From a virus: a stretch of DNA of 21,725 nt. The position numbers and the translations under genes are program-made. Below, in pieces: positions 2,134 to 21,725 of this stretch (its first letter is position 1; each line of letters starts with the position of its first letter). The notes under the pieces are model-generated. The model was not told the DNA's origin. It made no database searches and saw only the letters and a program-made list of their open reading frames with translations. The stretch lies in IMG/VR virus record IMGVR_UViG_3300027706_000274, positions 1 through 21,725 of that record. The stretch is one strand, 5' to 3'.

Positions 2134-3336
2134 ATGATGAAAAGAATGTGGGAGGGATGCGCCATCGTTTGCGAACGCCGAGCGATCAGACGACGGGCGA
2201 TTGCCGTGGTAACGGCGGCCATATTGGCGGTTTGCGCGACGCCGATGGTGGCGGGAGCTCGGCAAAGCCGCGCAAAGAAGCCCGCCTCGACGATCGAAGG
2301 ATCGGTCGCCGGAGCGCCCAATGTCAGAGTGACCGTAGTCGGCGCGCGAACTTCAACTCGGACCGACGCATCCGGGTTCTTTTCGATGACAGGGAAGCGA
2401 CTGTCGGGGAACCACGTAATCAGATTCAGGGAGGGCCATAAAACCTTCACGACCACGGTGACGGTGCCGGCGGGAAGCCAGGTGTCACTTCAGGGAGTCG
2501 CGTTAAGCAGCGGCGGAACCGCCGATCCCGAAGAAGAAGATATTGACGTCGACGGTACTCTGACCGCGGTCGACTGCAACGCCACGCCGAACACGTTGAC
2601 GATCACTCCGGGTAATGGCGGCACGGCGGTCGTGATGTCGTTCGATCCCACAGTCACGCAGATAACCGATGAATCCACGGACACCGTCATCACGAGTTGC
2701 GCCACGCTGGCCGGCGATTTCATCAACGCCCCGGCCAAAGCCGAAGGCGTCGAGACCGCCAGCGGCGGCATCAACGCGACCGAGGTTCAGTTGAACCCAT
2801 CGCAAAACAATCCGCAGCCCGAGGAAGTCCATTTCAGCGGCATCGTTCAGTCGGAGAATTGTCCGAGTTCGATCGTCGTGCAACGGAGCGACGGCACTAA
2901 TGTCACCGTCAACATAGCCTCGTCCACCGAGATCAATATCGAAGACTCGGAGCAGCAATCGCAGGGCACCTGCTCCAGCATCCCGGCCGGAGCGATCGTC
3001 AAGGTGGAGGGCACCTCTCAAGGCAGCAGTGTGAATGCCGCGAGCATCGAGGTGCGGCAGAACGAATTCGAGTCCGAAGGGACGATCAACAGCACGAATT
3101 GCGGCGCCAATCCTCCTTCGCTGTCCTTCACTCCCGACAGCGCCAGCAGCGCCGTCGTGGTAACGATCGGACCGACGACGATTATCGAAGTGGGCGACAA
3201 CAAAGGCGCGACCTGTGCGGATGTTGCGAGCGGCGCCGCCAAGGTGGAAGGTGTCGCGCAGCCTGACGGCTCGGTTGCGGCGAGCAAAATCGAGCAGGAA
3301 GGGGAGGGCAGCGACGGGCACAGTTCCGGCCGCTGA
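2134..3336 (+). CDS. Secreted DUF5666-like repeat protein (probable moron)
   Basis: A 400-residue exported protein with no obvious role in the virion. Seen: a basic n-region (RRAIRRR, 16-21+), a hydrophobic core 23-40 (AIAVVTAAILAVCATPMVAG) and a likely signal-peptidase site near GA|RQ at 42. Next is a carboxypeptidase-regulatory-like beta domain at about 54-122 (GSVAGAPNVRVTVVGA, TDASGFF), an acidic linker EEEDID, and three DUF5666-like beta repeats at about 138-225, 232-307 and 313-388. Each repeat contains exactly two cysteines (148/189, 243/280, 323/361), which suggests one disulfide per repeat in the periplasm. The open frame extends to 1918, but the signal peptide and AAGGAA favour ATG 2134. 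It is isolated by a 314-base leader and a terminator, between terminase and portal. The function of DUF5666 is unknown; a lysogen-expressed envelope protein is my inference. Confidence 0.75.
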   Translation: MMKRMWEGCAIVCERRAIRRRAIAVVTAAILAVCATPMVAGARQSRAKKPASTIEGSVAGAPNVRVTVVGARTSTRTDASGFFSMTGKRLSGNHVIRFREGHKTFTTTVTVPAGSQVSLQGVALSSGGTADPEEEDIDVDGTLTAVDCNATPNTLTITPGNGGTAVVMSFDPTVTQITDESTDTVITSCATLAGDFINAPAKAEGVETASGGINATEVQLNPSQNNPQPEEVHFSGIVQSENCPSSIVVQRSDGTNVTVNIASSTEINIEDSEQQSQGTCSSIPAGAIVKVEGTSQGSSVNAASIEVRQNEFESEGTINSTNCGANPPSLSFTPDSASSAVVVTIGPTTIIEVGDNKGATCADVASGAAKVEGVAQPDGSVAASKIEQEGEGSDGHSSGR

Positions 3337-10307: not shown

Positions 10308-11072
10308 ATGCAGGCGGCATTCGGCAGCGGCTCGCTGTGGGGTGTGATTACTCAATTTGCCGACGGGTCGATACCGGCGACGCCCACGATCGCAAAGGTC
10401 GGCACACTTCAGGAGTGGTCGCTGAATGTCCAATGGGACATCCGGCAGCTCTACGGAGGCTTCGATTCTCCGGTCGCGATCGGGCGCGGCAAGGCGAAGT
10501 ATCCGCTCAAGTTCAAATTCGCGCAGCTCAACGCGAACCTGCTTCAGGCGTTCGTGTTCGGAGCGCCCGGACAGCCCGTCACGGGTGAAACCCTGATGGC
10601 GGAAGATGAGCAGCACTCGGTCCCCAGCTCCGCGCCCTACAACCTTACGATCTCTCCGCCGAATTCGGGGACTTTCGCAGCCGACTGGGGCGTGCGCTAC
10701 GCGGCGAGCGGCCTCACTCTTACCAAGGTCGCGAGCGCGCCGTCCGCGGGACAATACAGCGTGAGCGGCGGAGTTTACACGTTTGCTTCCGCCGACGCGA
10801 ACGCGGCGATGCTGGTGTCGTACGAGTACGCGCTCGCGGGTGGCTACACGATCCAGGTCAGCAGACAATTGCTCGGTTCGCTCCCGGCCTTCAAGTTCTT
10901 CGGCAAGGTCCTGTTCTCGGGCAAACAGTTGACCGTGAAGATGAACCAGGTGGTCGCGTCGAAACTCTCGATGCAGACGAAGATCGACGATTTCATGATT
11001 CCTGAAATTGACGCGGAGGCCTTCGCCGACGCATCGGGAACCGTGATGTATCTGTCGATGGTCGAGCTGTAG
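10308..11072 (+). CDS. Major tail tube protein
   Basis: A 254-residue protein, the expected size for a siphophage tube subunit, whose hexameric rings stack round the tape measure. Seen: the N-terminal WGVITQFADGSIPATPTIAKVGTLQEWSLN (in part), a beta-barrel core with KYPLKFKFAQLNANLLQAFVFG, and a middle Ala/Gly/Ser-rich beta stretch (ADWGVRYAASGLTLTKV). The end, KIDDFMIPEIDAEAFADASG, then VMYLSMVEL, is typical of tube proteins. GAGAGGAAG precedes the ATG by about 8 bases. Its place just before the chaperone pair is the standard order. Confidence 0.8.
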   Translation: MQAAFGSGSLWGVITQFADGSIPATPTIAKVGTLQEWSLNVQWDIRQLYGGFDSPVAIGRGKAKYPLKFKFAQLNANLLQAFVFGAPGQPVTGETLMAEDEQHSVPSSAPYNLTISPPNSGTFAADWGVRYAASGLTLTKVASAPSAGQYSVSGGVYTFASADANAAMLVSYEYALAGGYTIQVSRQLLGSLPAFKFFGKVLFSGKQLTVKMNQVVASKLSMQTKIDDFMIPEIDAEAFADASGTVMYLSMVEL

Positions 11073-12981: not shown

Positions 12982-13899
12982 ATGAGCTCGGCGCTCTTTC
13001 CCAAATTTCTCGGCGCGGCATTTTCGATCACCAAGGCCCCCAGGTTCAATACACTCATCCAGGAGAGCACGTCCGGCAAGGAACTGCGGCTGGCGCTGCA
13101 GGCGATACCGCGATGGGAGATTACGCTCACCTACGAATATCTGTATGCGCGCCAGCGATACCTCGCGGCGAACCAGGTGCCGGATGCTTCGGCCCTGATC
13201 GATCCCGTCAATTTGATCGCGAACGATTGGGCGGCGCTCGCCGGGTTCTTTGCGGCGCGCCAGGGAGCGTTCGACGATTTTCTGCTCGATGACCAGGACG
13301 AAGATCCCGTCATCAGCGAAGTCAACGGCCTGATCGGGGTCGGCGACGGGAGCACCAGAAGCTTTCAACTGCAGCGGCAGCTCGGATCGTTCAACGAGCC
13401 GGTGCAGAACATAAACGGCGATCCGGTCTTGCCGGCGGGCAACTGGAGCCCGGGCCGAATCAACGCAATCAACGACGTAATTCTTCCAAGTTCGACCGCG
13501 ATGGCGGCGCAGGCCAACCGGCAACCCGCGGTTCAAAGCATAGGATGGCCCTGCAGCTTCAAATGCACGTCCGCCGGGACGTCCGGCGAGATCGAACCGA
13601 ACTGGAGGCTGGCCGCGCAGGCGGGCCAGAGCGTGGCGGACGGTTCCGTTACCTGGACCAATCAAGGCGCGGCGTTTGTGCTGTACGTCAACGGCGCCGC
13701 GCAATCGCCCACTGCGTATGTGTTGTCATCGACCGGAATAGTCACATTCAACACGCCCGTGCCGAATGGATATCGGATTTCATGGACGGGAGATTTCTAT
13801 ACTCGGGTTCGATTTGTGCGCGACACGATCGAGTTCGACGAATTTTACTATCAATTTTGGCAAGCGAAGCGGGTCGAGCTGATTAGCGTGAAACTCTGA
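12982..13899 (+). CDS. DUF2460 distal tail protein with an inserted carbohydrate-binding-like module
   Basis: A 305-residue protein, probably the distal tail ring joining tube and hub; this family (TIGR02217 type) is usually about 210 residues. Core signatures: FPKFLGAAFSITKAPRFNT at 6-24, GKELRLALQAIPRWEITLTY at 32-51, ALAGFFAARQGAFDDFLLDD at 85-104, and the end VRFVRDTIEFDEFYYQFWQ at 277-294 (family-typical). Residues 155-229 are extra and contain CTSAGTSGEIEPNW and SVADGSVTWTNQG, the same pattern as a module in the tip protein. The core resumes at AFVLYVNG. No strong ribosome-binding site precedes ATG 12982. It is the first of four genes in the conserved tail-tip order. Confidence 0.85.
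   Translation: MSSALFPKFLGAAFSITKAPRFNTLIQESTSGKELRLALQAIPRWEITLTYEYLYARQRYLAANQVPDASALIDPVNLIANDWAALAGFFAARQGAFDDFLLDDQDEDPVISEVNGLIGVGDGSTRSFQLQRQLGSFNEPVQNINGDPVLPAGNWSPGRINAINDVILPSSTAMAAQANRQPAVQSIGWPCSFKCTSAGTSGEIEPNWRLAAQAGQSVADGSVTWTNQGAAFVLYVNGAAQSPTAYVLSSTGIVTFNTPVPNGYRISWTGDFYTRVRFVRDTIEFDEFYYQFWQAKRVELISVKL
13444..13668 (+). other. Carbohydrate-binding-like module inside the DUF2460 protein
   Basis: Codes for residues 155-229. The pattern (C)TSAGTSG..EP.W....G.SV.DG.VTWT also appears at 18798-19001 in the tip protein. It resembles short aromatic beta modules scattered through phage tail proteins. Sugar binding is inferred from similarity to such modules, not shown. Confidence 0.5.
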
Positions 13900-13963: not shown

Positions 13964-14647
13964 GTGAAAATTGACACTTTTCGCTCGAAGATATCGTCGT
14001 TTGGCCCTCTCGGATACTGGCGGCTCAACGATGCTTCGCATATCGGGGCCGCAGATTCGTCTGGGTTCGGAAATGATGGGCAATACAGCTCGACCGCGAT
14101 TGCGCTGCTGCAGGGCCTCGCCCCGGGCATCTACGGCGCAAGCCTGCCGGGCAGCGATACGGCATATGTGACGCTGCCAAATGTGGACGCCTTTCGAATT
14201 CCGATTCTGAGCGGCCTGGTTACGTTCAAGGATCAGGGTACCCCGGCGAACGGCCGCCTCGTTTACTTCACGGGCGAAAGCACCGCGGGGCCGGGATGGC
14301 AGGTGATGCGCGCGGCCAGCGGCAACGGCGCGGTTCTGGCGATCGATACGAGCGCGCAACATGCTCAGACGCTGAATTTTCCCGGTGCTCCGTTCGACGG
14401 CAATCGGCACACGCTGGCGTGGGGATTCGACGGCGCTTATCTGTACGCCTCGACGGATTTTTCATCCTGGGCGACCGCGCCTTACAGTGTCGGCGGCGGA
14501 CCGGTCCCCAATCCAAGCGCTTCGTTCCTGATCGGAAAGGCGGCGATCGCGGGGCCGGGATATTACGCAAAGGCGATTATCTCAGACCTTGCGATTTTTC
14601 CTTACGTCCTGCAGGCCGCTCAGCTCGATGGGCTTTCGGCCGCGCTC
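13964..14647 (+). other. N-terminal LamG-like domain of the hub protein
   Basis: Residues 1-228. LamG signs: the opening GYWRLND, DSSGFGNDG, a strand pattern with HTLAWGFDGAYLYAS near 149-163, and a closing SDLAIFPYVL. It shares the opening pattern GYWR..D..........DxSGxGxxG with the second domain at residue 479, so the two are probably distant paralogues. Confidence 0.6.
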
Positions 14648-16222
14648 GGGTCGGGAAACGATGCGCTGGAATACACGCTGCTGACCGCGCGCGAACTTAC
14701 GGTCGCGGATTTGTTCAGCATCGAACTTGCCGATGGCACGGTTCTCAACTGGACGAGCTTCGATTGCGATGTGGTGGCCGGAGCGACCAGGTATTCTTCG
14801 ATGGGTCCGCGGCTCAAGCGCGGAGCAATCAGATGGAAGCGCGGCGTCGAGGCGTCGCCGCTGGAATTGAGAGTCGCCGGAGCTTCGACCGATGTCGGGG
14901 ATCTTGGCCTGACCGTCGCACAAGCGATCACCGCGGGCTATTTCAACGGCGCCAAAGTCACCGTCAGCCGGGTGTATAACCCTGCGCGCACGGCTGACGG
15001 GTCATACTCGGCGCTGTCGGCGCTGATGCTGTTTCAGGGATGGGTTGGAAAGATCGAGCAGGGGCGCCCGTACGCAAGAATCACCGTCAATTCGCTGTTC
15101 GAGCGGATGAATTTGCAGTGGCCGTTCACGATGCTCCAGCCGTCGTGCCGATGGACGCTGTTCGACAGCGGATGCTCGCTGGATCAGGCCGGATTTGCCG
15201 TCAGCGGGGCGGTGCAATCCGGCTCGACCGCGTCGAAGATTGCGCATGGCCTGACGAACGCAACCGGCTACTTCGATCAGGGGCGCATCAAGTTCACCAG
15301 CGGACCGAACAACGGGATCTGGCGCGTGGTGCAATCCGGCATCGCGGCGGGGGCGGCCGCGAGCTACCAACAGACCGTGCTCAACGACAAGCCGGCGGGC
15401 TACTGGCGCTTTGGCGACCTGGCCGGATCGTCAACCGTCGCCGACCTCAGCGGCAACGGTTACCACGGCACGGTGCGCGGCGGCGTTGCGCTCGGGCAGC
15501 CGGGAGCTCTGGCGGGAGATTCGACTACCTGCGCGCTGTTCGACGGAAGCAGCGGCTACATCACGCTTCCGATCCCGAAGCCGGGCGCCTTCGCGCAGGG
15601 AATCAGCTTCGAGTTCTGGTTCAAACTTCCGCCGGGATCGGCGCCTGCGCAGCCGGCGGGAATTTTCGACACCGCTACGGGAGATCCTTTCACGCTGCGC
15701 AACTTCAATCCGGGCGGCGGCTCCCCGGCGTTCGAATGGAAGAGCAAGGGCCAGCCGATGGTCGGCTTCAATCAGCCGGCCGCCAACGTCTGGGTGCATG
15801 TGGTGGTGACCTATCGCGGCCAGAACGCGATCGATCTCTACTATAATGGACAGCTCTACAGTTCAGCGACCGCGCAGGGCAACGGCCAGATAGCCTGGAA
15901 GAACCCGATCACGATCGGAAACATCAACGGCGGCGCGAACGGATGGTTCAAAGGCTATCTGCAGGAATTCGCGATCTATCCCTATGCGATGTCGGCCGAC
16001 CAGCCGCTTGCGCACTACGATGCGGGCGTTACGCCGCCCAGCGCGAGCGGCAGCGGAATATTTGTCCTGACGCAGGCGCTGCCGTATGCGCCGGCGGCGG
16101 GCGACACGTTCGTCGTTTACCCGGGGTGCGACAAATCGCAGCGTACCTGCCGGCTCAAGTTCAACAACCTCGCCAATTTTGGCGGCTTTCCGTACGTGCC
16201 CGCGCCGGAGACCGCGGCATGA
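13964..16222 (+). CDS. DUF2163 tail hub protein with two LamG-like domains
   Basis: A 752-residue protein; typical DUF2163 (TIGR02218) hub proteins are near 300. Domains: LamG-like 1-228 (GYWRLNDAS, DSSGFGNDG, FLIGKAAI); DUF2163 part one 235-458 (FSIELADGTVLNWTSFDCDV, RGAIRWKRGVEASPLELRV, PSCRWTLFDSGCSLD); LamG-like 467-690 (GYWRFGD, VADLSGNGYHGTV, FEFWFKLPPG, VHVVVTYRG, DLYYNGQLY); DUF2163 part two 697-752 (GCDKSQRTCRLKFNNLANFG, GFPYVP). Cys395/404 and Cys722/729 have the 9- and 7-residue spacings of the lambda gpL iron-sulfur ligands as I recall them. GTG 13964 is the only start after the in-frame stop at 13943. AGGAGG lies 29 bases upstream. The stop overlaps the next ATG. Likely at the tail tip, binding surface sugars as well as forming the hub. 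Confidence 0.85.
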   Translation: MKIDTFRSKISSFGPLGYWRLNDASHIGAADSSGFGNDGQYSSTAIALLQGLAPGIYGASLPGSDTAYVTLPNVDAFRIPILSGLVTFKDQGTPANGRLVYFTGESTAGPGWQVMRAASGNGAVLAIDTSAQHAQTLNFPGAPFDGNRHTLAWGFDGAYLYASTDFSSWATAPYSVGGGPVPNPSASFLIGKAAIAGPGYYAKAIISDLAIFPYVLQAAQLDGLSAALGSGNDALEYTLLTARELTVADLFSIELADGTVLNWTSFDCDVVAGATRYSSMGPRLKRGAIRWKRGVEASPLELRVAGASTDVGDLGLTVAQAITAGYFNGAKVTVSRVYNPARTADGSYSALSALMLFQGWVGKIEQGRPYARITVNSLFERMNLQWPFTMLQPSCRWTLFDSGCSLDQAGFAVSGAVQSGSTASKIAHGLTNATGYFDQGRIKFTSGPNNGIWRVVQSGIAAGAAASYQQTVLNDKPAGYWRFGDLAGSSTVADLSGNGYHGTVRGGVALGQPGALAGDSTTCALFDGSSGYITLPIPKPGAFAQGISFEFWFKLPPGSAPAQPAGIFDTATGDPFTLRNFNPGGGSPAFEWKSKGQPMVGFNQPAANVWVHVVVTYRGQNAIDLYYNGQLYSSATAQGNGQIAWKNPITIGNINGGANGWFKGYLQEFAIYPYAMSADQPLAHYDAGVTPPSASGSGIFVLTQALPYAPAAGDTFVVYPGCDKSQRTCRLKFNNLANFGGFPYVPAPETAA
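15362..16033 (+). other. LamG-like domain inserted in the DUF2163 hub
   Basis: Residues 467-690. A complete LamG-like jelly roll lies between IWRVVQS (DUF2163 strand ending near 458) and GIFVLTQALP (resuming at 697). Cysteine codons flank it: 15146 and 15173 on one side, 16127 and 16148 on the other. Confidence 0.7.
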
Positions 16223-16779
16223 TGAGCGGTGAAAACGCCCTTCGAGCCGCGATCGTGAGCGAGGCGCGCTCATGGATCGGCACGCCGTATCTCCATCAAG
16301 GTCGCGCGAAAGGAGCAGGCGTCGATTGCGCGATGCTGTTGCTCGAAGTCTACGAACGCGCGGGCCTGCTGCCCCATCTGGAGCTGGCCGAGATCGTAAC
16401 CGATCCCGAAAAGCAGATCGCGAAGTATCCGCCGGACTGGATGCTGCATCGCGACGACGAGCGCTATCTTCGCATCGTCGAACGATTCGCGTGCCGATTG
16501 CCGGTTGGAGCAATGCCGAGCGACGGCGATATCGCGCTGTATCGATGGGGACGGACCGTCAGCCACGGCGGAATAGTCGATCGATGGCCGCGAATCATCC
16601 ACGCCTATTCGCGATCCAATCGGGTCGAGTACGGAGAGGGCGATCGCGGCGAGATAGGAGGGCCGGGTCCCGACGGCAAACCGCGGTTGGCGGGATTCTG
16701 GTCGCTCTGGCCGCCGCGCAATAACCGCGGCGCCCGCGCTCAACTCGCAACCGCACTCGAGGAATCGAAGGCTGTATGA
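16219..16779 (+). CDS. NlpC/P60 tail peptidoglycan hydrolase
   Basis: A 186-residue cysteine peptidase of the phage NlpC/P60 type (TIGR02219-like; the counterpart of the C-terminal half of lambda gpK) that would cut cell-wall peptides during entry. Likely catalytic residues: Cys37 in GVDCAMLL, His116 in SHGGIV and His128 in IIHAYS. The usual start, ARSWIGTPYLHQGRAKGAGV, is intact at 17-36. The frame is open upstream inside the hub gene, but the ATG at 16219 overlaps the hub stop as ATGA; ATG 16222 is equally possible. The stop overlaps the tip-protein start. There is no signal peptide, as expected for a tail component. It has no JAB-type domain, unlike lambda gpK. Confidence 0.9.
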   Translation: MMSGENALRAAIVSEARSWIGTPYLHQGRAKGAGVDCAMLLLEVYERAGLLPHLELAEIVTDPEKQIAKYPPDWMLHRDDERYLRIVERFACRLPVGAMPSDGDIALYRWGRTVSHGGIVDRWPRIIHAYSRSNRVEYGEGDRGEIGGPGPDGKPRLAGFWSLWPPRNNRGARAQLATALEESKAV

Positions 16780-19700
16780 GTTTCTTCGCCAATCAGAGCG
16801 TCGCGGGCACGCGACCGTCGATTCATCATTTTCGCGTCAATTCTTCCCAGTATGGATCGATAATTCCGATCGTCTATGGGCGAGCGCGCATTCCCGGCAT
16901 CTTCATATGGACCGGGGATTTCACCGCAACCAAGTCTCAAGGTCCGGGCAAGGGACTCGGAGGCACCGGCGGCTCGTTTTATAACTACTCGGTCTCGGTT
17001 GAGATTGCGCTCAGCCAGGGGGCGATCACTTCGCTGGGCCGCTCGTGGCATATGGGCAACGGCGGCCTGAAGCGCCATACCGCCGCGCAGACCAATTCCA
17101 ACTGGACACTGTTCCCCGGCGCATTCGGGCAGGCGCCGTGGTCGTACATGACGACCAGGCATCCGGGGCAGGATCTTGGCTACAGTGGAATCGCCTACCT
17201 CGCGCGCAGCGCCTGGAACCTGGGAACCTCGGGATCGCCGCCGCAGATTACTTTCGAGGTCTTCGGACTCGCGCCTTACGGTTCCGGAGTGTCGGATGCG
17301 AATCCGCGCGACGTGATCAACGACATCCTCGTCAACTCGCGCTATGGGCTCGGCCTCGATCCGTCCTGTGTCGCCGACCTGTCTGATTTCTCGAACTACT
17401 GCATCGCCAGCAGTTTCTTCATCTCGCCGGTTTTCGATCAGCAGAAGACGATGGCGGAATGGATGAAGCTGCTGCTCGATTGCGTACATGCGGACGCGGT
17501 GTGGTCGAACGGCCAGTTGAAAATCGTGCCTTACGGAGATCGGCCGGTCGCGGGAAACGGCACGACATGGATTCCTTCCGTCGGGCCCGTCTATGCGCTG
17601 AATGACGACGACTTCATCGCGGAAAAGAACTCGGCGCCGGTGACTGTCTCCGTGACGACGCCGGCGGATCGCGCCAACGTCGTGAACGTCGAGTACGTCA
17701 ACGCCGCCAACGACTACAATATCGAAACGGCCGAGGCCAAGGATGAAGCGGATATCCAGCGCCTTGGGCAGCGGCGCGATTCACCCAGGCAGTTCCATCC
17801 GATTACCAGCGCATTGATGGCGCGATCGGTCGCGCAGCTCAAGCTGCAGCGGTCGCTGTACGTCGCGAACCAGTGCGAGGTTCGCGTGCCGCAGCGATAC
17901 ATCCTGGCGGAGCCGATGGATGTAGTCGCGCTGACCGACGAATACCTGGGGCTGGACGCTTATCCCGCGCGGATCGTCGAGATCGAGGAAGAAGCGGACG
18001 ATGCGGGCCAGTTGATCGGCGATTCGCTTTTGATAACCCTCGAGGACCTCGGCGCCAACAGCACGCCCGGCTATCCGACCCAGCCTCCCGGCCCATGGGG
18101 AGCGGTGGATCAAAACACGGCGCCCAACCCAATCAATGTCAACCCGATAATCTTCGAGCCGCCCGCAAAAGCACTCGGCAATCACGGCATCGCGGCGCAT
18201 CTCAAGGGATCGCTCGAACTGTGGGTGGCGGCATCGCCGCAGGATGCGGATGCTGATTGGGGCGGATGCAACGTCTATCTCTCGGCCGACAACAACACTT
18301 ACAGCCTGATTGGCCGGATAAGAAACGCGGCGGCGATGGGCATGCTCGCCGCGCCGCTGCCGTCTCATCCCGATCCGGACACCGCCGACACCTTGCAGGT
18401 GGATTTGTCGGAGAGCGGAGGCTCCCTGACCGCCGCATCGCATGCGCTGGCGGATGCGGGAATGAATCTCGCCTACGTGGATGGAGAGTTGATCTGTTTT
18501 GCCGGCGTGGCCGCGGGAGCTGGTCCGAATCAGTTCAATCTCGGCTACCTGCGCCGGGGACGTTATGGCACGACGATCCGGAGCCACGCCGCCGGCTCGA
18601 GCTTCGCCTTCCTTGGCGCGATCCATTCGCTGGATCCGTCGATACTGCGTATTCCACTGAGTAATGCGCACATCGGACAAACCCTCTATCTGAAGTTCGC
18701 GTCCGTCAACACGGAGATCGATTCCGAGCAGGATCTCGCCGCCTGCGCCGCGTACAGCGTAACCATAGCGGGCACGGCGCATCAGAACCGCATCCCCCAT
18801 CGCCACGTAAAGAAGTACCGGGCCGCGACGTTTTACACCGCGGGCGCATACGTCAAGCCGAATTTGCCCAACGGGTTTTTCTATCAGGCGCAGAACAGCG
18901 GAACGTCCGGCGGAGCCGAACCCGCATGGCCGCTCGGAGTCGACGAAAGCGTTACCGATAGCGGCGGCATCATGTGGACCGCGATCGAGGCATCGCCGGA
19001 GATCGACGATGGGTCCATCCCGACTTCGGGCCTTGACAACACGCCGATGCCGGATGTGACGGGATTGACCTATGCGATAACGAAGAAGGGCGACATCAAG
19101 CTGTCATGGTCGTTCGCCACGCCGCGCCCTTCCAACTTCTCGCATTTCGAAATCCGTCAGGGCGCGAGCTGGGCGGCCGGAACTTTCGTCGATACAACGA
19201 AGCGCAATCAGCTTCTGATTAGCGATCCCGCGCCGGGAACCGAAACTTACTGGGTCGGCGCGATCAACGTTGCGCTGGTTGCCGATGCCGTCCCGCAGTC
19301 GGTCAGCGTTACGATGCCGTCGTTGCCCCCTGTGACCGGCCTGACCGCAACCGTCACGAAGAAGCAGGACGTTCAGCTCCGATGGACGAAACCGTCGCCA
19401 TTCCCGGTTCACTTTCGCGCTTATGAAATCCGGACGGACACGAATCCCGGCAACGCGGTGAACCTGGTCGATCACACCAAGAAGACCAGCTACCTGATAA
19501 CCGATCCCGTCGGCGGCGCCACATATTACGTGTACGTACTCGATTCAGCCGGAAACTACAGCGCGGGCGTTTCGGTAACGGCGACCGCGGGCGCGCCCTA
19601 CAAAAAGTCCTGGCTTCAACTGTGGTCCGGGCTGACCGCCGATCCGAGCGACAACAATCGCTACCAGCCGGGCCAGCGCACCGGCGCGCCCGTCACCGGC

Positions 19701-21725
19701 ACCGCGACCATCAGCAGCTATGGGGGAGATTGGGAAGTCTCGTTGCAGGTCGAGCTTGGAGCGAATGCGGAAATCGAGCTCTATCAGTCCGACGGCGGCG
19801 GCCACGGCTATCTGCTGCAGGTCGGCGCCGTTAGCGGCCGCAGCGCGGCGGTCGTCAGATGGAATGGGTCGGCCTACACCGACCTGGTGGTCGCCTCCGG
19901 TGCCTACCCCGCGGCCACGCCCTTCAACATAATCTTCAAGCGTCACGCCACCGGCCACTTCGAGATTTACGTGAACGGCGCGCTGGCGGCGAGCTTCCAG
20001 GATACGACCTACGGCGCGGCAGGCCCGCTGTATCTGATGTACTCAACCGCCGTCTGTTACCTGAGCAACCTGGTGGTGCGCGGCGGGCACGCCGACACGC
20101 CGAAGGCATACAAGGACGCGAACAAGCGCGGGCTCATCGACTTCACCCAGAGCGGCCACGTCGGCAAGCACCTCGGCAACATCCCCGACGATCCGGCGAG
20201 CAGCCGGTACGGCGTTTCGGCGATCGACGGCAATCGCAAGGCGCTGATCGATTTCACGCAAAGCGGACATGCCGGCAAGCATCTGGGCAATCTCCCCGAC
20301 GATACGACTTCATCCTCGGGCCGGCGCAAGGCGCACGTCGTGGATGTGCTTGCGAACCGGCCCGCAGCCGGAAACGCGGGCGCTCTCTTCCACGCCACTG
20401 ACGTAGGCGCGAACGGAACGACCTATCGCGACACCGGCACGGCCTGGAAGAAGGTCGGGGTAGGGCATCTCGACGACCTCGACGAGGGCACGGCTTACAA
20501 GCGCATCCCCGCGGCCGTGGTCGATAGCAACCAGATTCCCGTCAAGCAGCAGGCGCATCTCTGGAGCGGACTTACCAACGACCCCGCCAACCCAAGGCGC
20601 ATGTACCCGGTGCAGCGCACTGCCAATCCCGTCACCGGCACTCAGACCAACTCTTCCTACCAGGGCGACGTGGAAATCGCGATGCAGGTCGAGCTTGCGC
20701 CGGGCGGATCGATCGAGATGTTCTATCCCGACCCTGCCGGCAACGGCTATCTGTTCCAGGTCAGCACTACCAGCGTTTACGGCATCTGGAAGTTCGCCGC
20801 GTCAACCGCGACCTGGACCAACGTCTCCACCACCCTCGAAAACTTCCCCGCCAACACTCCGATGGGCGTGATGTTCAAGTATCACAAGACCGGCGATCTC
20901 GAGGTGTGGGTGAACGGCATCGCCTATCAGACCGCGCGCGATACCACCTATACTCCGGGTGGACGGCTCGCCCTCGACTGGTTCGGGGCGCAGTCCTGGG
21001 TAAGCGACCTCAACCTGCGCCATGGTCACACCGACTCCCCCGCGCGCATCAAGGATCCCGGCAAGCGCGACCTCATCGACTTCTCGCAGTCCGGGCATCT
21101 CGGCAAGAACCTCGACAACATTCCCGACGGCACGAACTTCGTATCGATTCCGGCGATCAACATCTCCGGCACCGGCGCCAACAAGAAACTCAAGAAGAGC
21201 GGCATCGCCGCCAAAGAACTCGACAACTCCGTTCTAGCCGTCGGCGCGGTCACGACTTCTGGGGCCAACAGCGCAGCCGGCACCGTTGGCAACCCGCTCG
21301 CGAATATCACCGGATGGCCGGTGAACTCCTATTCAGCTTGGACTTCGCTCGTTTCGGTGCCCCTGAACATTCAGAACGTTGGCGATCTTGTCGAAACCAC
21401 CTGTGTCATCAGCGCAGAACTGAACAGCTACAACAAGGGCAACGACGATGTAGAGGTTCGGGTGATCGATGACCTCGGCAATGTCATCTGCACGCCTCAA
21501 CTAGCGATCGGAGACTTCACGCGCGTGCAAGGTCAAACCGATCCGACAACCTATGGAGGTGCTGGCCTTCAACTTGACGTTCTTGCGGGCATCGATTTCG
21601 GGACAGCCGCCGCGAGCGGAAGCCGCACGCTGACGCTCCAAATACGCGCATATCAGGTATCGACGATTCATTTCACCCTCGTCGTACACTACGCCCGTCT
21701 CGCGGCTAAGGATTTTGGCGCGTGA
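16776..21725 (+). CDS. Giant tail tip / receptor-binding protein (J-like, 1649 residues)
   Basis: Central tip protein and host-recognition fibre. The first 430 residues match the J-like tail tip family: IIPIVYGRARIPG, GKGLGGTGGSFYNYSVSVEI, and FEVFGLAPYGSGVSDANPRDVINDILV (in part). Residues 450-650 include AYVDGELICFAGVAAGAG and LGYLRRGRYGTTIRSHAAGS, usual for tip proteins. Then come a carbohydrate-binding-like module (675-742), two fibronectin III-like repeats (758-849 and 850-938), lectin-like module A (949-1117), and two LIDFTQSGH motifs (from 1120 and 1157). An ANRPAAGNAG..F..TDVG fibre element lies near 1190-1230. Lectin-like module B (1262-1430) and a third motif (from 1433) follow, then a spacer SGIAAKELDNSVLAVG and a beta-rich end (about 1475-1649). 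ATG 16776 overlaps the NlpC stop. The stop codon is the last three bases of the window, so the gene is complete. Confidence 0.85.
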   Translation: MSFFANQSVAGTRPSIHHFRVNSSQYGSIIPIVYGRARIPGIFIWTGDFTATKSQGPGKGLGGTGGSFYNYSVSVEIALSQGAITSLGRSWHMGNGGLKRHTAAQTNSNWTLFPGAFGQAPWSYMTTRHPGQDLGYSGIAYLARSAWNLGTSGSPPQITFEVFGLAPYGSGVSDANPRDVINDILVNSRYGLGLDPSCVADLSDFSNYCIASSFFISPVFDQQKTMAEWMKLLLDCVHADAVWSNGQLKIVPYGDRPVAGNGTTWIPSVGPVYALNDDDFIAEKNSAPVTVSVTTPADRANVVNVEYVNAANDYNIETAEAKDEADIQRLGQRRDSPRQFHPITSALMARSVAQLKLQRSLYVANQCEVRVPQRYILAEPMDVVALTDEYLGLDAYPARIVEIEEEADDAGQLIGDSLLITLEDLGANSTPGYPTQPPGPWGAVDQNTAPNPINVNPIIFEPPAKALGNHGIAAHLKGSLELWVAASPQDADADWGGCNVYLSADNNTYSLIGRIRNAAAMGMLAAPLPSHPDPDTADTLQVDLSESGGSLTAASHALADAGMNLAYVDGELICFAGVAAGAGPNQFNLGYLRRGRYGTTIRSHAAGSSFAFLGAIHSLDPSILRIPLSNAHIGQTLYLKFASVNTEIDSEQDLAACAAYSVTIAGTAHQNRIPHRHVKKYRAATFYTAGAYVKPNLPNGFFYQAQNSGTSGGAEPAWPLGVDESVTDSGGIMWTAIEASPEIDDGSIPTSGLDNTPMPDVTGLTYAITKKGDIKLSWSFATPRPSNFSHFEIRQGASWAAGTFVDTTKRNQLLISDPAPGTETYWVGAINVALVADAVPQSVSVTMPSLPPVTGLTATVTKKQDVQLRWTKPSPFPVHFRAYEIRTDTNPGNAVNLVDHTKKTSYLITDPVGGATYYVYVLDSAGNYSAGVSVTATAGAPYKKSWLQLWSGLTADPSDNNRYQPGQRTGAPVTGTATISSYGGDWEVSLQVELGANAEIELYQSDGGGHGYLLQVGAVSGRSAAVVRWNGSAYTDLVVASGAYPAATPFNIIFKRHATGHFEIYVNGALAASFQDTTYGAAGPLYLMYSTAVCYLSNLVVRGGHADTPKAYKDANKRGLIDFTQSGHVGKHLGNIPDDPASSRYGVSAIDGNRKALIDFTQSGHAGKHLGNLPDDTTSSSGRRKAHVVDVLANRPAAGNAGALFHATDVGANGTTYRDTGTAWKKVGVGHLDDLDEGTAYKRIPAAVVDSNQIPVKQQAHLWSGLTNDPANPRRMYPVQRTANPVTGTQTNSSYQGDVEIAMQVELAPGGSIEMFYPDPAGNGYLFQVSTTSVYGIWKFAASTATWTNVSTTLENFPANTPMGVMFKYHKTGDLEVWVNGIAYQTARDTTYTPGGRLALDWFGAQSWVSDLNLRHGHTDSPARIKDPGKRDLIDFSQSGHLGKNLDNIPDGTNFVSIPAINISGTGANKKLKKSGIAAKELDNSVLAVGAVTTSGANSAAGTVGNPLANITGWPVNSYSAWTSLVSVPLNIQNVGDLVETTCVISAELNSYNKGNDDVEVRVIDDLGNVICTPQLAIGDFTRVQGQTDPTTYGGAGLQLDVLAGIDFGTAAASGSRTLTLQIRAYQVSTIHFTLVVHYARLAAKDFGA
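18798..19001 (+). other. Carbohydrate-binding-like module in the tip protein
   Basis: Residues 675-742: TFYTAGAYVKP, GFFYQAQNSGTSGGAEPAWP, ESVTDSGGIMWTA. The GTSG..EP.W..G.SVTD..W pattern is shared with 13444-13668 in the DUF2460 protein. It precedes the fibronectin repeats, where a sugar-binding or spacer module is common. Confidence 0.5.
19047..19592 (+). repeat. Two fibronectin III-like repeats
   Basis: Residues 758-849 and 850-938 both begin P.VTGLT..(I/V)TKK.D(I/V).L.W and carry the later FEIR / YEIR and YWVGAI / YYVYVLDSAG strands. Spacing is 92 codons. They form a tandem beta-sandwich stalk between the tip core and the lectin-like modules. Confidence 0.7.
19620..20126 (+). repeat. Lectin-like module, copy A
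   Basis: Residues 949-1117, exactly 169 codons, from LWSGLTADPSDN to the lysine before the first LIDF motif. Shared with copy B: LWSGLT.DP, PVTG, SSY.GD, QVELA/GxxxxIE, GYL.QV, FEIYVNG/LEVWVNG, DTTY, SDLN/SNLV..GH.D.P. The vNG-DTTY pattern suggests a concanavalin-like jelly roll. Confidence 0.7.
20133..20192 (+). repeat. LIDFxQSGHxGK motif, copy 1
   Basis: Residues 1120-1139, LIDFTQSGHVGKHLGNIPDD. It follows lectin-like module A directly. Confidence 0.8.
20244..20303 (+). repeat. LIDFxQSGHxGK motif, copy 2
   Basis: Residues 1157-1176, LIDFTQSGHAGKHLGNLPDD. It has 18 of 20 residues identical to copy 1. The DNA differs at 11 of 60 positions, 9 of them synonymous. Confidence 0.8.
20559..21065 (+). 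repeat. Lectin-like module, copy B
   Basis: Residues 1262-1430, also 169 codons, starting LWSGLTNDPANP. It aligns end to end with copy A at the protein level while differing widely in DNA, so the duplication is old. It is followed by the third LIDF motif in the same relative position as in copy A. Confidence 0.7.
21072..21131 (+). repeat. LIDFxQSGHxGK motif, copy 3
   Basis: Residues 1433-1452, LIDFSQSGHLGKNLDNIPDG. It follows lectin-like module B directly, at the same spacing as copy 1 after module A. Confidence 0.8.

Follow-up and report, generated by a model that had tools for sequence, protein, structure and literature searches.

How can a phage tail-tip hub that is expected to hold an iron–sulfur cluster through two pairs of cysteines accommodate a lectin-like domain between those pairs, and what might such a domain do there? 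The question is raised by one gene in a 21,725-nucleotide stretch of viral DNA (IMG/VR record IMGVR_UViG_3300027706_000274, positions 1–21,725), which we refer to as the window. For comparison we drew on the available portions of published accounts of the RcGTA, R4C, lambda and JBD30 hubs and of the evolved Dit and Tal proteins (PMC7296036, PMC11445458, PMC10276861, PMC10721106, PMC10688798, PMC7291167, PMC13243795, PMC7326821).

The hub gene and its neighborhood

The gene is a single frame at 13964–16222 that translates to 752 aa with zero internal stops. TIGR02218 matches the whole protein at 106.8 bits (cut-off 80.5); in a six-frame genome search its two halves score 60.7 and 52.3 separately, below the cut-off. 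The attachment domain PF09931 is found at 100.2 bits (cut-off 26), and PF09356 (Phage_BR0599) matches residues 697–747 (E 6.5e-22; 78.1 bits, cut-off 22.9). A 91-row profile reaches RcGTA g13 (1.2e-33), the R4C hub (8.2e-29), Chi gp27 (1.1e-23) and JBD30 (6.8e-20). Judged by these profile matches, the protein is a DUF2163/TIGR02218 baseplate hub, kin of the RcGTA, R4C, Chi and JBD30 hubs. The hub and its neighbors are as follows.

12982–13899, + strand: upstream neighbor, DUF2460, RcGTA g12-like distal tail protein (PF09343, E 1.4e-32)
13964–16222, + strand: baseplate hub gene (DUF2163/TIGR02218, from Pfam and TIGR02218), 752 aa, predicted GTG start
16219–16779, + strand: downstream neighbor, NlpC/P60-like tail peptidase, RcGTA g14-like (PF00877, E 0.0015, below cut-off; phrog_329, E 5.4e-14)
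16776–21725, + strand: downstream neighbor, RcGTA g15-like (megatron) tail protein (PF13550 and PF23666, Rcc01698 C-terminal; phrog_1101, E 7.1e-88)

Pfam and PHROG matches thus give the order DUF2460, hub, NlpC/P60-like protein and megatron, which is the g12–g15 order of RcGTA. Upstream of the hub, the window also contains terminase, portal and protease-like genes. The likeness to RcGTA is one of the tail module only, and we do not claim gene transfer agent status for the element. All five flanking proteins scanned on the contig are of host type: the left flank encodes a shikimate kinase, a HAD hydrolase, an M20 peptidase and a Na/H exchanger, and the right flank an acyl-CoA dehydrogenase. 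We therefore take the element to be an integrated prophage. Between the terminase and portal genes, the frame at 2161–3336 has weak CarboxypepD_reg and DUF5666-like matches, below the cut-offs, and no PHROG match was found for it; it is perhaps a cargo gene.

Within the hub, the following segments can be assigned.

13964–14653, + strand: N-terminal segment, residues 1–230, possibly LamG-like (Laminin_G_3, E 0.012; 16.2 bits, cut-off 27.6)
14678–15184, + strand: attachment domain PF09931, residues 239–407 (Pfam, E 1.7e-28)
15182–15340, + strand: first half of the OB-like (oligosaccharide-binding) domain, residues 407–459 (hub profile matched to position 227 at residue 459)
15341–16051, + strand: inserted segment, residues 460–696, with LamG at about 466–690 and its Pfam core at 527–680 (profile gap 227/229)
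16052–16126, + strand: second half of the OB-like domain, residues 697–721 (hub profile resumes at residue 697)
16151–16219, + strand: C-terminal clip-like segment, residues 730–752 (by position relative to the RcGTA hub)

This order resembles that of RcGTA g13 (6tba/6teh) and the R4C hub (8gtc), which likewise have an attachment domain, a split four-cysteine ion-binding domain, a clip and, between the cysteine pairs, an OB-like oligosaccharide-binding domain. Unlike the window hub, they have neither a LamG in the OB-like domain nor an N-terminal LamG-like segment. Their domain order is published, and the name 'oligosaccharide-binding' in the available RcGTA account is based on structural similarity.

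Putative cluster cysteines and their spacing

The window hub has six cysteines, at residues 268, 395, 404, 523, 722 and 729. Four of these occupy hub-family columns in alignments that include the PDB relatives, and are cluster ligands by homology.

15146–15148, + strand: Cys395, ligand 1 by homology (hub-family columns)
15173–15175, + strand: Cys404, ligand 2 by homology (hub-family columns)
16127–16129, + strand: Cys722, ligand 3 by homology (hub-family columns)
16148–16150, + strand: Cys729, ligand 4 by homology (hub-family columns)

The pairs are spaced by 9 (Cys395/404) and 7 (Cys722/729), as the original prediction had it, and the interval that it named, 15146–16150, runs exactly from Cys395 to Cys729. 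It had also likened these spacings to those of lambda gpL, with a short stretch between the pairs. For gpL itself this is accurate: the 9 and 7 spacings are shared with the window, and the available account gives Cys173, 182, 205 and 212 as ligands of a known [4Fe-4S] cluster, with 22 residues between the pairs. The usual figure in DUF2163-type hubs, however, is about 82, and the 22 residues of gpL leave no room for an OB-like domain or a LamG. The JBD30 hub, with Cys147/156/238/245, has the spacing 9-82-7 and is reported to contain a putative metal site.

We surveyed 319 loci fetched by similarity (several contigs more than once), in which the motif was found in 277, representing 138 distinct hubs by their last 150 residues. 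Among these 138, Cys1–Cys2 is 9 in 137 and Cys3–Cys4 is 7 in 133. Cys2–Cys3 is 80–100 in 136 (82 in 85 of them), the exceptions being two LamG-bearing hubs from metagenome-assembled genomes (MAGs), L013 (417) and L014 (427); in the window hub it is 318. The motif was missed in 42 loci, and 35 of these were re-examined by profile after seven repeating contigs already taken had been left out. Many of the 35 keep four cysteines with changed letters or spacings, and several have a Cys3–Cys4 of 9 or 10. L070 is cut off by the end of its contig, the L311 hub lies in two frames and the first pair of L230 is ambiguous.

These sets are non-random. The loci are best matches and the rows of alignments A3 and A7 were mostly picked for having the motif, so that part of the near-invariance of the cysteines in A7 is built in. 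Evidence free of that selection comes from the two LamG hubs, the PDB relatives and 20 phage-record hubs, with the loss in L265 standing against it. That locus (L265:1036–2454) encodes a hub relative without three of the four cluster cysteines, the remainder of which still matches the hub profile. The cluster is therefore not indispensable in the hub family, and hub homologues without it have already been reported in the part of PMC13243795 available to us.

Such cluster-less homologues, and the putative metal ion that the JBD30 authors modelled at the equivalent cysteines, would be in keeping with a view in which the four cysteines hold another metal or form disulfides, or in which the cluster is absent from the window hub. 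We consider this improbable, because both the spacing and the alignment columns match those of RcGTA and R4C, where cluster density was modelled. The alignment of close relatives that the original prediction proposed as a check gives a similar answer: all four cysteines are kept in both LamG relatives, L013 and L014.

A LamG domain nested in the OB-like domain

In the window hub, Laminin_G_3 matches residues 527–680 (E 5e-25; 88.8 bits, cut-off 27.6). A full LamG-like domain between the cysteine pairs had been proposed at 467–690, and these edges are reasonable because similarity to the MAG LamG domains begins at about 466 and the hub profile is interrupted between 459 and 697. The alignments support a gpL-type hub with four conserved cysteines and a LamG between its pairs.

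The insertion point was read from a profile of hubs without inserts, in which Cys2 is position 172 and Cys3 is position 254. In the window, 237 residues replace one profile position, between 227 (residue 459) and 229 (residue 697), which places the insert 55 positions after Cys2 and 25 before Cys3. The corresponding point in RcGTA lies inside the oligosaccharide-binding domain, reported at residues 168–249 between the two parts of the ion-binding domain, and the LamG is therefore an insertion nested in an insertion. As placed by the profile, the arrangement is one of domain within domain: a LamG in the OB-like domain, itself inside the iron–sulfur domain.

This differs from the original prediction, in which the lectin grows directly from a loop at the cluster, beside the hub's structural lock, and from a version of it in which the sugar-binding surface would be coupled to the cluster as a lock or trigger. 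The LamG does lie between the cysteine pairs in sequence, and inserts beside the ligands are found in other hubs, either after Cys2 (L013, L014, the V10 group and Ccr-type hubs) or between Cys3 and Cys4 (L262, L283 and L344). The window insert, however, is located at 227/229, in a turn of the OB-like domain, which makes direct outgrowth from the cluster loops quite improbable here.

The same junction carries a LamG in the hubs of L013 (231/229) and L014 (230/228), which are public MAG contigs labelled Proteobacteria and Deltaproteobacteria. Both have roughly 75–85 extra residues directly after Cys2, and the window's N-terminal segment is absent from both. Residues 134–264 of the L013 hub, including the extra residues after Cys2, match a pectin-lyase-annotated protein of Burkholderia phage BcepMigl (38.2%). 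A third contig, L015 (IMG/VR), is identical to L013 across all 9848 bases fetched, and we do not treat it as an independent case. Since the four cysteines occupy hub-family columns and two other genomes share the arrangement (47 and 52% identity), the arrangement is not a product of chance.

Each of the four regions compared in the three LamG-hub pairs has dN below dS (for L013 versus L014, 0.30 against 0.92 in the LamG and 0.19 against 0.69 in the attachment domain), the ratios for the window pairs being weak because dS is high (0.71–2.93). The LamG therefore looks to be kept by selection. These results also bear on whether a LamG fragment was joined into the hub by chance, through an assembly error or in a decayed prophage gene. 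The genome is a draft in 87 contigs, with host genes around the prophage, but the frame is open throughout, dN is below dS and the junction recurs in the two MAGs. We judge an assembly error unlikely, and the chance that either process accounts for the gene to be very slight.

The N-terminal segment is not classed as a LamG because its Laminin_G_3 score is below the cut-off. By blastp, residues 1–230 match the L013 LamG (E 0.002) and the window's own internal LamG (E 0.02).

Predicted structure of the hub

The AlphaFold2 model that we used covers residues 228–752 and was built with 91 rows (mean pLDDT 77.3, pTM 0.46). When all 752 residues were modelled, the mean pLDDT was 58.7 and residues 1–222 fell below 50, this segment being without homologues in the input. 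In blocks of ten residues, pLDDT in the 228–752 model is 78–95 in the attachment domain to about residue 377 and 63–68 from there to just before Cys404. The two OB-like halves are at 91–97 (407–459) and 91–98 (697–721), and the LamG is mostly at 62–82, with two stretches below 50 (562–598 and 639–660). Block means at Cys395, 404, 722 and 729 are 63, 94, 91 and 90.

The model aligns on both sides of the insert with the RcGTA hub (6tba_7A; Z 15.1, 273 aligned, rmsd 9.5 Å) and with lambda gpL (8iyk_L; Z 14.4, 197 aligned, rmsd 4.7 Å). The R4C (Z 15.1), Chi (Z 14.3) and JBD30 (Z 13.7) hubs are also aligned across the insert, and BFVD matches include A0A1B0V117 (686 aa) and M4QRB6. The low pTM and the high rmsd over the whole hub make domain placement uncertain.

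The internal domain of the model is a Laminin_G_3 (LamG/ConA-like) jelly-roll in its predicted fold. It matches AbnA domain 4 (5hon_A) with Z 13.1 and 2.8 Å over 159 aligned residues at 23% identity, and the title of that entry names a complex with arabino-oligosaccharide. Many further fold matches are to clostridial neurotoxin or NTNH chains; these attest to the fold and do not imply sugar binding.

Inserts in other hubs

Two further questions are (i) how widespread LamG hubs are and (ii) whether other hubs carry inserts around the same ligands. For the first, some match to the LamG-hub alignment was found in 16 of 148 genomes of the window's class; hub and LamG parts were both matched in three of the 148 (the window's own included), all of one family. 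In a sample of 395 genomes from the phylum, TIGR02218 has matches in five, in one of them above the cut-off. The genome_contigs scan found no LamG hubs beyond L013 and L014. Scanning viral_contigs with P0001 alone gave three pattern matches and no relative. With A1, relatives are encoded by 416 of the candidates, of which we kept the best 80. In 76 of these best 80 of 416, Cys2–Cys3 is 417 (L015) or 82–86 (the remaining 75); in the other four, read by profile, it is 88 (L041, L054 and L062) or 82 (L070). The A3 and A1 scans of viral_contigs returned nearly identical contig sets.

For the second, the 20 phage-record hubs, several chosen for C-terminal-only matches and the Sphingobium phage Lacusarx hub for a structure hit, have the 9 and 7 spacings without exception (20/20), and 10 of them have long inserts between the pairs. 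Laminin_G_3 is over the cut-off between the pairs in all six tested (V10, MD18, RpAliso, DSS3_MAL1, RcXuper and DSS3P8). These are related hubs of Ruegeria, Phaeobacter and Rhodobacter phages that combine DUF2163 with Laminin_G_3 as the window hub does. They differ in that the insert starts close behind Cys2 (a break in the hub profile from 174–177 to 183–194, unlike the window's 227/229), Cys2–Cys3 is 488–520 and more inserted sequence surrounds the LamG. They are not six independent cases, as the V10 and DSS3P8 hubs look nearly the same. The window LamG matches that of V10 weakly (27.8% over 72 aa, E 0.01) and is closer to the LamG of L096, a phage tail protein of another kind (32%, E 3e-22). 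Given the weak match and the different insertion points, separate insertions are the simpler account, and the simplest reading of these alignments is that a LamG between the cysteine pairs arose at least twice.

The Lacusarx hub (LAV_00021) also has four cysteines and a long insert between its pairs (Cys162 to Cys427), but this is annotated as F5/8 type C-like (Pfam E 3.5e-4, below the cut-off) and breaks the profile at 191/199. Three Caulobacter and Brevundimonas phage hubs have inserts without a Pfam match at E 0.01; phrog_20658 matches the CcrKarma insert at 388–428. Inserts thus occur in other hubs at differing points, from which it follows that the split iron–sulfur domain accepts them at several points. 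Three loci (L262:982–2634, L283:1489–2658 and L344:1492–2673) encode hubs with about 90–105 extra residues between Cys3 and Cys4, and part of the L262 insert matches phrog_8234, to which the window protein at 10308–11072 also belongs.

The original prediction knew of no described case of a LamG in this position. In the literature available to us we likewise found no description of a LamG between hub cysteine pairs. The accessible portions of the DSS3P8 and Rhodobacter phage papers (PMC4961962, PMC8601537) mention neither LamG nor concanavalin, nor, respectively, ORFG13 or iron–sulfur. The claim needs qualifying in two respects. The RcGTA and R4C publications already describe a putative sugar-binding domain between the pairs, and database records of phages such as DSS3P8 and V10 already contained hubs with a LamG.

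A possible role at the tail tip

We think it probable that the window encodes a prophage hub of the lambda gpL/RcGTA g13 kind in which a LamG inserted in a hairpin turn of the OB-like domain is a candidate auxiliary adhesin. The C-terminal half would form a split iron–sulfur (ion-binding) domain, with Cys395/404 and Cys722/729 contributed by separate segments and the OB-like domain between them. By holding these distant segments together, a cluster could allow the hub to tolerate the insertion. If the hub is trimeric, as in RcGTA, three internal LamGs, and possibly three N-terminal ones, would project from the baseplate and might make extra weak contacts with surface polysaccharide. Such contacts could assist the tail tip in settling onto the envelope ahead of megatron opening, a role like that of carbohydrate-binding modules in evolved Dit.

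Evolved Dit and Tal, from phages of Gram-positive hosts, offer the nearest functional parallel, as there too a carbohydrate-binding module is inserted in a baseplate core protein. They are other proteins with other modules, and the portions of their descriptions available to us do not describe an iron–sulfur domain. Skunavirus recombinants with evolved Dit are reported to have regained full infectivity on EPS-bearing hosts and to have adsorbed better, and carbohydrate-binding modules are reported in the gp27-like part of Tal as well. The RcGTA and R4C authors suggest that particles attach to the capsule, or pass through it, with the help of sugar-binding sites on the distal tail protein, hub, megatron and fibres. 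On this analogy, an auxiliary adhesin is the most likely role of the LamG.

LamG domains are not always lectins, and the domain might instead be a structural spacer or contact the megatron, a fibre or a neighboring hub, with no binding of host sugar. LamG/ConA-like domains occur in many viral proteins, the matched rows name no ligand and many fold neighbors are chains whose matched part does not bear on sugar binding. The three hub LamGs also seem to be under constraint similar to that of the hub core, which would be expected of a fixed contact. We regard this alternative as somewhat unlikely. AbnA domain 4, among the closer fold neighbors, was solved with arabino-oligosaccharide, and the inter-cysteine segment takes unrelated modules (F5/8C-like in Lacusarx, others in the Ccr-type hubs), a pattern more like that of swappable adhesins.

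A broader and rather unlikely extension of the adhesin reading is that the split iron–sulfur domain of gpL/g13-type hubs is a general docking port for adhesins and that the cluster may also act in release. As a port, the cluster would pin four cysteines from separate segments, leaving the sequence between or beside them free to accept modules. Entry points would lie after Cys2, at two places in the OB-like domain, between Cys3 and Cys4, and after Cys4. In release, engagement of a receptor by the inserted lectin might strain or expose an oxygen-sensitive cluster and help to open the baseplate.

For lambda, the available account places the iron–sulfur domain on the outer surface of the tip and states that its functions remain to be characterized. 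The window hub keeps its ligands despite 237 inserted residues, and hubs of the family repeatedly carry inserts around these ligands, a recurrence that is to us the most interesting part. Both suggest the testable idea that the cluster acts as a staple, allowing the hub to tolerate added receptor-binding parts. If true, the evolved Dit/Tal concept, familiar from phages of Gram-positive hosts, would also cover GTA-like tail tips.

Several minor observations concern related modules. L096:2782–6474 encodes a 1230-aa phage protein of another family with a similar LamG cassette near its N-terminus. The hub at L031:3983–5749 carries an N-terminally placed LamG (Laminin_G_3, E 2.1e-18) and extra sequence after Cys4; in this LamG a W-F-DEG...SGN.NDG segment follows the jelly-roll core, as if circularly permuted. 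In a genome of the same family as the window's, the hub frame at L011:9734–10699 runs, by eye, into sequence like an integrase C-terminus, apparently in a rearranged prophage. Within the window, a phrog_20658 module is common to the distal tail protein (12982–13899; residues 190–227) and the megatron (16776–21725; residues 678–736), and the C-terminal half of the megatron contains repeated segments of the types LIDFTQSGH..GKHLGN and LWSGLT.DP.
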